From assembly GCA_029561465.1 (NCBI GenBank), contig JAKQIZ010000128.1:1-41541 (forward strand): a stretch of 41,541 bases of DNA, in the 5' to 3' direction. The notes beneath the pieces are model-generated. The model saw nothing but the letters and a program-made list of their open reading frames with translations. It searched no databases and had not been told where the DNA came from. The DNA comes from Deltaproteobacteria bacterium. GTDB lineage: Bacteria; Desulfobacterota; Syntrophia; Syntrophales; UBA8958. The stretch's first letter is position 1. The number at the start of each line of letters is the position of its first letter. This document shows positions 29,813 to 33,852 of the stretch, one piece after another. A program made the position numbers and the translations under genes.

Positions 29813-30946
29813 ATGAAGGAAGTATTCTCCGTGAGCGCCATCGGCAGTCTGGAATTGAAAAACCGTTTCGTCCGCTCGGCCACCTGGGAGGGCATGGCGG
29901 ATGAAGCAGGTCGACCCCGGCCGCAATATCTGGAGACCATGATCGCCCTGGCCCGGGGGGGCGTGGGACTGATCATTACGGGCCATGCCTTCGTCAGTCC
30001 CGAAGGGCAAGCCACGCCGTGGCAGTTGGCCATCGATCGCGACGATTGCCGGGAAGGGCTGCAGGAGATAACCGCCGCGGTCCACGCCGCGGGCGGAAAG
30101 ATCGTCGTCCAGCTTGCCCATGCGGGATTCTTTGCCGCCGCCGGCATTACCGGCCGCGACCGGCTGGTCGTTTCCCCACAAGAGAGCCAGGATCCATCCC
30201 CCCAGAAGGAAATAGATAAACAGGGTTTGCAGGAACTCCTTGGCGCTTATGCCGCGGCGGCGGGGCGGGCCCGGAAAGCGGGCTTCGACGGTGTCCAGGT
30301 CCATATGGCCCACGGCTATCTTTTAAGTCAGTTCCTATCGCCGGCCTTCAACCGGCGGCGGGACGGCTATGGAGGGGATATTCATAACCGCAGCCGGATT
30401 CACCGGGAGATCTGCGGGGCCATCCGGGATACCGTGGGGAAGGATTATCCCCTGCTGATCAAGCTCAACGCCCAGGATTTTATCGAAAACGGTCTCACCG
30501 TCCCGGAGGCGGCCGCCGCGGCACGGCTCATGGTGGATGCGGGCGTGGACGCCGTGGAGTTGAGCGGCGGGACGATCATCAGCGGCCGTCTTTCGCCCAG
30601 CAGGACAAAAATCAATGCCCCGGAAAAAGAGGCCTATTTCCGGGAGGAGGCCCGGTGGCTGCGGGAAAACGTCCAGGTACCGCTGCTCCTTGTGGGGGGC
30701 AACCGGTCTTATGAAGTCGCCGCCGGCCTCCTGGCCGAAGGAGCCGCCGACTATATCTCCCTGAGCCGTCCCCTCATCCGGGAGGCGGACCTGATCCGGC
30801 GCTGGGAGGAAGGGGACCGCCGTCCCGCCGCCTGCGTCTCCGACAACCTCTGCTTTGCCCCCGCCTTCGAGGGCCGGGGGATCTACTGCGTCACCGCGGA
30901 GCGGAAAGCGGCTCGCAGCGGAAAGATCGTGAGAGAAGAACCGTAG
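29813..30946 (+). CDS. NADH:flavin oxidoreductase, Old Yellow Enzyme family
   Basis: The 377-residue TIM-barrel flavoenzyme starts with KNRFVRSATWEGMADEAGRP and has VQLAHAGFFAAAGI. The family signature VHMAHGYLLSQFLSP is followed by NRRRDGYGGDIHNRSRI. The C-terminal phosphate-binding region LLLVGGNRS and CVSDNLCFAP are also present. It should bind FMN and reduce activated double bonds, with NAD(P)H as donor. It lacks the long second flavin domain of 2,4-dienoyl-CoA reductases. ATG at 29813 follows GGAAGAGG closely. It is the last intact plus-strand gene before a decayed region. Confidence 0.9.
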   Translation: MKEVFSVSAIGSLELKNRFVRSATWEGMADEAGRPRPQYLETMIALARGGVGLIITGHAFVSPEGQATPWQLAIDRDDCREGLQEITAAVHAAGGKIVVQLAHAGFFAAAGITGRDRLVVSPQESQDPSPQKEIDKQGLQELLGAYAAAAGRARKAGFDGVQVHMAHGYLLSQFLSPAFNRRRDGYGGDIHNRSRIHREICGAIRDTVGKDYPLLIKLNAQDFIENGLTVPEAAAAARLMVDAGVDAVELSGGTIISGRLSPSRTKINAPEKEAYFREEARWLRENVQVPLLLVGGNRSYEVAAGLLAEGAADYISLSRPLIREADLIRRWEEGDRRPAACVSDNLCFAPAFEGRGIYCVTAERKAARSGKIVREEP

Positions 30947-30980
30947 CGAAGCGGCCCTCCGCCGGGCCCGCGATCCGCTG

Positions 30981-31371
30981 GTAAACCCGACCCTGCTACA
31001 AAACAGCGGCTTCGTCTTCGGGATCATGGCCATTGGCATCGTCTTTTTTTTTCATCGGCGGCAATCTGTTTTTAATGCCCTTTTATCTCAAATATTCCCT
31101 GGAGCTTAGGGTCGATAGCGCCGGTTTGCTTTTCTCTCTCTATCCCGCCGCGGGATTCATCGTCAAGGGCGCCATTACCTCCCTGGATGCGGCAAAAAAG
31201 CTGATCGACATCGGCGGCATTGTTGTCAGAGTCGTGGACCGGGCCTGGCTGGAAGGGCCAAACCATGTGAAAATTCCCCTGACATTGTTTGCCCCTGGTT
31301 AGAAGGTGCAATGCAAGGGTGACTGGACCGGAAAAGGGGAGCTCACGGCCTTCAAGGTGGTTGTCGAGTAG
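30981..31371 (+). pseudogene. Decayed MFS transporter fragment plus unknown C-terminal piece
   Basis: Codons from 30981 read VNPTLLQNSGFVFGIMAIGI, as in EmrB/QacA-type MFS exporters. At a T9 run (31044-31052) the frame shifts and continues GGNLFLMPFYLKYSLELRVD then SAGLLFSLYPAAGF. From about 31160 the same frame runs into an unrelated piece (ITSLDAAKKLIDIGGIVV, AWLEGPNHVKIPLTLFAPG). A TAG at 31300-31302 interrupts it, and reading on gives KVQCKGDWTGKGELTAFKVV up to a TAG at 31369-31371. So two unrelated gene pieces are fused, one frameshifted and one with a nonsense codon. No function is expected. Confidence 0.6.
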
Positions 31372-31468
31372 GACCGCCCCCGGCGCCCTGCCTTTTGGCC
31401 GGACCGTACGAAGAAGCTGCAAGGCGCCTTGTGTTTCCCTTCCGACCGACGCCTGGCGCCGGAGAAAG

Positions 31469-31482
31469 GCGCCGAACGGCGC
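31469..31482 (-). terminator. Short hairpin directly after the biotin carboxylase stop
   Basis: On the minus strand GCGCC and GGCGC enclose GTTC immediately after the TGA at 31483-31485, followed by CTTTCTCC. It is a small possible intrinsic terminator. The rest of 31372-31482 shows nothing else. Confidence 0.3.
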
Positions 31483-32886
31483 TCAGGGGTGGAAATTCGC
31501 GGCGATATGCCGGGCAGGGTCGAACAGATCGCCGTGAAGGTCCAGGTAGGAGGTGTCGAAGCGGCCGGCCCGGAAATCGGGTTCATTGCAGATCGCCACA
31601 TAAAACGGAATCGTCGTCTTGAGGCCGACGATGACGAACTTCTCCAAGGCCTCCTTAAGCCGGTCCACGGCTTCCGTCCAAGAGGAACCCCAAACCGTCA
31701 GCTTGACCAGGAGCGAATCATAGACCGTGGGGACGGTGTAGCCTTCCCTGATGACGCCGTCCAGGCGGATGCCGGGACCGGCGGGCGGCCGGAAACCGAC
31801 CACCGTCTTGCCCCCTTCGGGCCAGAAATGATTCCCCGGATCCTCCGCGTTGACCCGCACATGGATCGCGCAGCCCTCGGCGGCCACGTCCTCCTGCTCC
31901 AGGGCGAGGGGTCGGCCCTCGGCGATCTCGATCTGCTTGGCGATGATGTCGATTCCCGTCACCATCTCCGTAACCGAGTGCTCGACCTGGAGCCGGGGGT
32001 TGACCTCCATGAACCAGAACTCCCCCTGCTGCTCGTCGTAGAGGAACTCGACGGTGCCGGCGTTGACGTAGCCGGCATGGCGCGCCACCCGGACGGCCGT
32101 CCGGCACATGGCATCCATTATGTCGCCGGGAACGGCGGCAGCCGGGGCCGTCTCGAGGAGCTTTTGATGGCGCCGCTGGATGGAGCAGTCCCGGGAGCCC
32201 AGATGGATCACCTTGCCGTAGGCGTCGGCCAGGATCTGGATTTCGACGTGGCGCGGCGCCACGATGCCCTTCTCCGCATAGACCGCGTCGTCGTTGAAGG
32301 CCAGCAGCGCTTCGCGCCGGGCGTGATGAAGCTGCTGTTCCAGGTGCGCGGCGTCCTTGACCTCCCGGATGCCCCGGCCGCCCCCGCCTTCGACGGCCTT
32401 CAGCAGGATGGGATAGCCCACGGCCTCGGCAAAGGCCAGGGCCTCCGCCACGCCCGCCGGTCCAGACGCCAGCACCTCCGTGCCCGGGATCGTGACGATC
32501 CGCTCCTGCCTCATCATCTCCTTGGCCATCACCTTGTCCCCCAGACGCCGCATCACCTCCGGAGGGGGACCGATGAAGACCAGGCCGTTGTCCCGGCAGG
32601 CGGCGGCGAATTCGGCGGATTCGGAGAGGAATCCGTAGCCGGGATGAATGGCGTCGGCACCCGCTTCTTTCGCGGCCCGGATGATCTTCTCGCTGTTCAG
32701 GTAGTCCGTGAGCGGGCCCGCTCCGATGGGTATCGCCGCATCGGCGCGGCGGATGAACAGCGTTTCGCTGTCGGGTAGCTCGTAAACGGCGATTGCCTCC
32801 CGTCCCATTTCATGCAGGGATTTGGTGATCGACTGGACCACCTCGCCGCGATTGGCGATCAAGATTCGCTGCAGCCTTCGTATCAT
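31483..32886 (-). CDS. Biotin carboxylase (ATP-grasp), stand-alone subunit
   Basis: From the ATG at 32886 the protein has 467 residues. It has the N-terminal RILIANRGE and the ATP-grasp core: LLKAVEGGGGRGIREV, YGKVIHLGSRDCSIQRRHQK and FMEVNPRLQVEHSVTEMVTG. The C-terminal cap includes KLTVWGSSWTEAVDRLKEAL. It should carboxylate biotin on a separate carrier protein. After the start, VVQSITKSLHEMG replaces the more usual IAxRIIRxCRELG, so it is a divergent member. No carrier or carboxyltransferase gene is in the window. The frame extends to 33000, but the repeat at 32893-32928 supplies an AGGAGGGGG ribosome site just before the ATG. Confidence 0.87.
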   Translation of the reverse strand: MIRRLQRILIANRGEVVQSITKSLHEMGREAIAVYELPDSETLFIRRADAAIPIGAGPLTDYLNSEKIIRAAKEAGADAIHPGYGFLSESAEFAAACRDNGLVFIGPPPEVMRRLGDKVMAKEMMRQERIVTIPGTEVLASGPAGVAEALAFAEAVGYPILLKAVEGGGGRGIREVKDAAHLEQQLHHARREALLAFNDDAVYAEKGIVAPRHVEIQILADAYGKVIHLGSRDCSIQRRHQKLLETAPAAAVPGDIMDAMCRTAVRVARHAGYVNAGTVEFLYDEQQGEFWFMEVNPRLQVEHSVTEMVTGIDIIAKQIEIAEGRPLALEQEDVAAEGCAIHVRVNAEDPGNHFWPEGGKTVVGFRPPAGPGIRLDGVIREGYTVPTVYDSLLVKLTVWGSSWTEAVDRLKEALEKFVIVGLKTTIPFYVAICNEPDFRAGRFDTSYLDLHGDLFDPARHIAANFHP

Positions 32887-32892
32887 TGGCCC

Positions 32893-32928
32893 ATCCCCCT
32901 CCTGAGCTCCCCCTTGTAAGGGGGAGGA
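32893..32928 (+). repeat. GC-rich palindromic repeat supplying a ribosome site
   Basis: CCCCCTCCTGA then CTCCCCCTT and AAGGGGGAG around GT (32907-32926) match the element at 27005-27045. On the minus strand its edge reads AGGAGGGGG 7-8 bases before the biotin carboxylase ATG. The rest of the 32887-33049 gap shows nothing. Confidence 0.6.
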
Positions 32929-33049
32929 AGAAAATAATTTCTTGGACGGTAAAGAAGCGATGACGCCGGTCACCCATCGCGGTTTATAAGGAGATAACAT
33001 CCGGTTTTCGCGACAAGTTTATATACCGGGGCCGCTGCGCCTGTCAATG

Positions 33050-33183
33050 GGAAACCACCTGCCCGCGAGCCGTTTGATGATATCCGTAATGAGGCCCGAG
33101 GCGGCGACGGTGGTGAAAACGAAGAGGAAAAGGCATATCCAGTCGTCGTGCCGTCAGAGGAAGCGGACCGTCAAACCCAGGAG
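33050..33183 (-). pseudogene. Duplicated PAP2 segment with a nonsense codon
   Basis: About 134 bases here match 33500-33633 inside the PAP2 gene at a constant 450-base offset with no gaps, so the duplication is in frame. In this copy the TGG codon for Trp is TGA (33154-33156), which ends the PAP2 gene. Beyond the stop the minus-strand frame still reads RHDDWICLFLFVFTTVAASG and LITDIIKRLAGRW, the same as the internal copy with changes. This is the start of a decayed second PAP2 copy; its catalytic remainder is missing. Confidence 0.75.
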
Positions 33184-33852
33184 GACAACGGTCCAACTCA
33201 TATTCCTTATTTGGCGCCCCAGACGGAAATACCGCAGGCGTGCCAGCACCAGCACCGTCATGACGGCCACATAGGCCCCGGCCAGGATGTCGCTGAGATA
33301 ATGGGCGCCGATGATCACCCGGCTCATGCTGACCAGGATCGCCAGGGCATACCAGAGGAGGCGCCAGCGGGGAAAAAGGATCGCCAGGGCCACCCCGCAG
33401 GCCCAGATGGTGGTGGCATGGCCCGAGGGGAAGGAGGTCTGCTCGTAGCCCACGCCGAAGAGATCGAATCCGTAAAAATGATCGGTGAAATAGGCCTTGG
33501 GACGCCACCGGCCCGCGAGCCATTTGATGATATCCGTAATGAGGCCCGAGGCGACGACGGCGCTGAAAACGAAGAGGGAACGACGCATCCAGTCGTCGCG
33601 CCGCCAGAGGAAGCGGGCCGCCAGACCCAGGAGGGCGGCGGCGATCAGGGACCAGGTCGATTCTCCCAACACGGTGACGTACGAAAAAAAAACGCCCACC
33701 TGGAAAGGCAGCTCATTGCCGGCCCGGGCGAGGGGCAGATCGAGGTAGAAATAGGCCGCCGCGACGGCCGCGCCGACCAGGAGGGTAAAGAGCAGGACCT
33801 CCTTCCGGGAAGCGGCGAAGAACGCCGGGGACTGCAATTCCTTTTGCGCCAT
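33154..33852 (-). CDS. PAP2 family phosphatase (lipid A or undecaprenyl-PP type)
   Basis: The 232-residue membrane protein has all three PAP2 motifs: KWLAGRWRP (KxxxxxxRP), FPSGHAT and SRVIIGAHYLSDILAG. About five membrane helices are visible. It removes phosphate from a lipid phosphate on the periplasmic side; in this setting LpxE- or PgpB-like activity on lipid A or undecaprenyl diphosphate is likely. The gene starts 4 bases after the GT39 gene stop, so the two are cotranscribed. The C-terminal ~15 residues (TVVLLGLTVRFL) come from a duplicated internal segment ending at a mutated Trp codon, so this tail is not native. Confidence 0.85.
   Translation of the reverse strand: MAQKELQSPAFFAASRKEVLLFTLLVGAAVAAAYFYLDLPLARAGNELPFQVGVFFSYVTVLGESTWSLIAAALLGLAARFLWRRDDWMRRSLFVFSAVVASGLITDIIKWLAGRWRPKAYFTDHFYGFDLFGVGYEQTSFPSGHATTIWACGVALAILFPRWRLLWYALAILVSMSRVIIGAHYLSDILAGAYVAVMTVLVLARLRYFRLGRQIRNMSWTVVLLGLTVRFL

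Follow-up and report, generated by a model that had tools for sequence, protein, structure and literature searches.

A decayed copy of the middle of a PAP2 phosphatase gene, probably a local and lineage-specific partial duplicate, ends the reading frame of the intact gene

Beside an intact PAP2-family phosphatase gene of a Deltaproteobacteria bacterium lies a second, decayed copy of the middle of that gene (copy A, with its counterpart inside the gene termed copy B), which is quite probably a dead, lineage-specific partial duplicate that arose by local duplication. The repeat, the pattern of change in copy A, the intact PAP2 domain and the absence of such a copy from the relatives searched are all established. 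The window, that is, the whole stretch of DNA that was analysed, comprises 41,541 nucleotides of contig JAKQIZ010000128.1, and the features concerned are collected in Table 1.

Table 1. Window coordinates of the PAP2 gene, the two copies and the neighbouring genes.
Feature	Coordinates	Strand	Basis
FMN oxidoreductase gene, facing the PAP2 gene	29813-30946		PF00724
accC-like biotin carboxylase gene	31483-33000	-	Pfam; start more likely near 32886
Copy A, the decayed member of the repeat, with one in-frame TGA	33050-33183	-	117/134 bases identical to copy B
TGA that ends the PAP2 frame; its homologous codon in the gene is TGG (Trp) at 33604-33606	33154-33156	-	
PAP2-family phosphatase gene, 232 aa, complete domain	33154-33852	-	Pfam PF01569, E 3.8e-23
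Coding sequence of the extended tail QIRNMSWTVVLLGLTVRFL, residues 214-232	33157-33213	-	Comparison with orthologues
Copy B, the segment of the PAP2 gene that served as source (residues 74-117)	33500-33633	-	Repeat comparison

The repeat pair and the intact PAP2 gene

Copies A and B were aligned without gaps at the positions given in the initial annotation, and differ at 17 of the 134 bases. A repeat search of the window returned the pair in a longer form of 144 bases with 86% identity, in which copy A spans 33048-33191, and listed it as the only direct repeat of at least 40 bases in the 41.5 kb. A search of the organism's own genome with 32880-33260 assigned the repeat an E value of 3.3e-43, far beyond chance. 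The copies are offset by 450 bases, a multiple of three, so that copy A is read in the PAP2 frame; the "450-base in-frame duplication" of the initial annotation therefore describes the offset and its frame correctly but not the duplicated length, which is that of the repeat pair. As had also been claimed, the Trp codon of the gene is replaced by TGA in copy A, where the PAP2 frame ends, and this is the one in-frame stop among the 44 codons of the copy. The PAP2 protein has a second match on the window contig at 33049-33165, confined to residues 80-118 (E 1.7e-10); given this extent and the limits found by the repeat search, an arrangement of two full tandem genes was rejected.

The PAP2 gene is intact. 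Its protein matches PF01569 with 82.1 bits, against a cut-off of 27.2, over profile positions 4-126 of 130, and carries all three catalytic motifs, starting at residues 110 (KWLAGRWRP), 142 (PSGH) and 177 (SRVIIGAHYLSD), the definitions of which we take to be KX6RP, PSGH and SRX5HX3D. Over 206 codons compared with the orthologue of the nearest relative (G002), dN/dS is 0.41. The enzyme would be expected to perform the ordinary function of a PAP2 phosphatase, with a slightly longer C-terminus, and copy A itself is expected to be without function.

In its domain and motifs, the gene resembles other members of the PAP2 superfamily (PF01569); it differs in its C-terminal end, which exceeds those of the six orthologues read by 12-17 residues. 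Alignment with these orthologues, which had been suggested for recognizing the native C-terminus, showed by eye that they end 4-9 residues past the sequence FRL (FCL in G006), compared with 21 in the window protein; loci L006 and L008 are in reverse orientation, and their ends were read from the list of open reading frames. The tail QIRNMSWTVVLLGLTVRFL occupies the position at which relatives carry short variable ends. Its last 9 residues (11 if the weaker part of the longer repeat is counted) are copy A read in frame, and its first 8-10 residues are not derived from copy A. The earlier description of the tail as foreign thus stands in that the frame ends in copy A and the tail is longer than those of the relatives, but does not extend to these first residues.

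Decay and age of copy A

A gapless comparison of copy A, copy B and G002 over the 134 bases yielded 30 variable sites, with 14 private to A, 3 to B and 13 to G002, and none at which all three differ. The difference in private changes between A and B is significant (two-sided p = 0.013). From the inferred common state, copy A has acquired 12 nonsynonymous changes, the nonsense change included, and 2 synonymous ones, and copy B 2 nonsynonymous and 1 synonymous. No sign of purifying selection was seen in copy A, at small numbers and with 12 of its 14 private changes at codon positions 1-2, which is not significant alone against an expectation of two-thirds (p = 0.11). Third positions account for 2 of these 14 changes, compared with 37 of the 76 between the PAP2 gene and G002 (Fisher p = 0.020), and 13 of the 14 are from GC to AT (one-sided p = 0.031). 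Together with the nonsense codon, these counts bear out the earlier view that one copy has decayed.

Copy A has the attributes of a pseudogene fragment, as it is homologous to a living gene, incomplete and interrupted by a nonsense codon. It resembles a bacterial pseudogene under AT-biased mutation in the direction of its changes, in the nonsense codon and in the lack of visible protein constraint, and differs in being a fragment of only 134-144 bases; such a mutational bias is put forward as a general claim in PMC2936535.

At 4 of the 13 sites at which A and B agree and differ from G002, the latter has the same base as each of the four other relatives in the site table, so that A and B carry common derived bases. 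This suggests that copy A derives from the window PAP2 gene itself and arose after divergence from G002. The table was compiled without G003, the sequence of which missed the search pattern, and G003 was included in the tree. The maximum-likelihood tree places A with B, with a support of only 73 over this short stretch, and assigns branch lengths of 0.133 to A and 0.018 to B. On these comparisons, and with the small numbers involved, copy A is most likely a dead fragment that originated after the nearest relative had split off.

In annotation, 33050-33183 should be entered as a pseudogene fragment and the PAP2 gene as an intact gene whose C-terminus is extended. The arrangement, in which a partial duplicate has decayed next to an intact gene, looks like an ordinary trace of past genome rearrangement; it matters little past annotation, as a small case of a gene end that moves when the adjoining interval is rearranged.

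Origin of copy A

The PAP2 protein was searched against 60 genomes, the organism's own included, of which 21 had matches, with 27 matches listed; a DNA search of the same 60 genomes gave matches in 11. A close orthologue is present once each in six of the seven other same-genus genomes, at 56-83% identity, and the additional PAP2 matches in genomes with a close orthologue are 29-40% identical. The seventh genome (G004, 82% complete) has a distant match only (33%), and the sole other PAP2 gene found in the organism's own draft genome is on contig C103, at 29% identity. Among the 27 listed matches from the 60 genomes, no second match resembling copy A was found besides the window's own.

A local duplication would have linked the sequence just beyond the old PAP2 stop with a position 450 bases earlier, within the gene, perhaps by way of a short match, for example GCCCTCC. 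The resulting copy would have been cut off after ~140 bases, where the accC-bearing DNA adjoins. A small length change directly ahead of the old stop would have shifted the latter out of frame, so that translation would continue into copy A and end at its TGA. The sequence that directly follows the PAP2 homology is ATGAGTTGGACC in the window and ATGAGTCCGACC in G002, the latter containing the G002 stop; if the two are homologous, the window has two bases fewer ahead of the point of that stop, which would place the old stop out of frame. The match between them as a remnant of the native end is suggestive only. In a banded comparison of the 21 bases before copy A with G002, a score as high arose in 50 of 5000 shuffles and in 168 of 5985 G002 pieces; with 26 bases, the counts were 31 of 2000 and 34 of 1991, respectively. 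With the start of copy A included, these values became 2 of 2000 and 4 of 1991, but the added bases can owe their match to copy A itself. With G002 taken to represent the ancestor, its downstream sequence shares an exact match of at most 7 bases (GCCCTCC) with the start of copy B, a length compatible with chance.

Partial gene duplication via short repeats in bacteria provides a parallel, in that a gene segment recurs as a direct copy next to the original and that a short match may be present at the joint. The present case differs in that copy A is truncated at its far side, the joint is eroded and the mechanism is one that we infer. In PMC5426353, RecA-independent recombination between short direct repeats is treated in terms of deletions.

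The initial annotation had invoked unequal recombination between two tandem PAP2 genes, of which the second, once complete, would have lost most of its length by recombination or deletion. This origin would account for two homologous copies in the same orientation and frame, with A decayed, but we consider it unlikely: two close copies are present in no relative searched, the close orthologue being single in the six same-genus genomes that have it, and copy A matches the gene middle only. Moreover, the searches recovered neither the start nor the N-terminal or C-terminal portion of a second gene, although a traceless deletion would look alike. As A carries derived bases in common with B, the second gene would also need to be a recent duplicate. 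Local partial duplication fits better than such recombination, with the joint itself unproven.

There is a slim chance that copy A arrived together with accC from a related strain, at the margin of a segment brought in by recombination or insertion. This would suit the adjacency of accC to copy A, the variability of the interval within the genus and the eight relatives, none of which has an accC match (E at most 1e-100) on the contig of its own PAP2 orthologue. Against this, A groups with B and not with G002 (support 73), in-place change accounts for the differences of A with no need of a donor, and the distant PAP2 gene on the contig of the best accC match outside the organism's own genome (G003:C65, 67% for accC) is, at 39% identity and ~17 kb from that match, too dissimilar as the source of copy A.

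An assembly or binning artefact, conceivable in a draft genome of 194 contigs with 5.64% contamination, is very unlikely because the copies are 13% apart and the flanking gene order is kept, with the flanking blocks 88-89% identical in DNA to G002 and the PAP2 and oxidoreductase genes on one contig in G001, G003, G005, G006 and G007. Occasional read-through of the TGA, which would add the Trp position and 44 further codons to the PAP2 protein, has practically no probability; if true, the protein would gain a second copy of a membrane segment and a broken first catalytic motif. Such coding was rejected, as copy A shows no constraint.

The variable interval and the accC-like gene

The interval between the PAP2 and oxidoreductase genes varies among species, and the flanks are kept. 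Between matched gene parts, its length is ~0.24 kb in two relatives (G005, G006), ~0.4 kb in G007, ~1.8 kb in G003, where it holds a frame that we take to be ABC-transporter-like, and ~13.9 kb in G001. In G002, the flanking genes are each close to the end of a separate contig; the two contigs have a 122-base end in common, so that the interval would be ~1.6 kb. The same interval in G002, read by eye in the last 1.5 kb of contig C30 (L064), seems to contain a small gene pair between two near-identical stretches; the pair is presumably toxin-antitoxin-like, and the stretches seem to us to resemble transposon remains. No PAP2 or accC match was found in the ~2.5 kb of the G004 contig beyond the oxidoreductase gene. 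In G008, from another genus, a heptosyltransferase-like gene comes next after PAP2, with the oxidoreductase gene on a different contig.

The window interval contains copy A, the accC-like gene and gene scraps, and the alignment of the window with G002 ends at 33213 and 30948, copy A itself excepted. The region 30940-31490 (551 bases) was searched for its origin. Scraps of two genes are found at 31057-31371, between the oxidoreductase gene and accC; they include a 36-aa piece with a weak match (37%, E 0.0075) to a transporter-like frame of G001, which we assume to be correctly labelled MFS, and a 211-base segment (31161-31371) with 73% identity to a DUF5666-domain gene on contig C69 of the organism's own genome. 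Pfam searches with the 89-aa and 116-aa frames beside accC returned 0 families.

For accC, the start called at 33000 seems to lie too far upstream: of the 20 other accC matches, 15 have their first aligned query residue at 39-43 and the others at 19-34 and 121, in keeping with an ATG at 32886 (residue 39). The organism's own genome has 3 matches to the window accC (E at most 1e-100), the other two being 58-59% identical. Upstream of accC, at 32890-32929, lies an element of ~40 bases, palindromic by eye and presumably REP-like, which occurs at 11 further places in the organism's own genome and recurs in all 7 same-genus relatives except perhaps G002, for which two rows are PAP2 matches.
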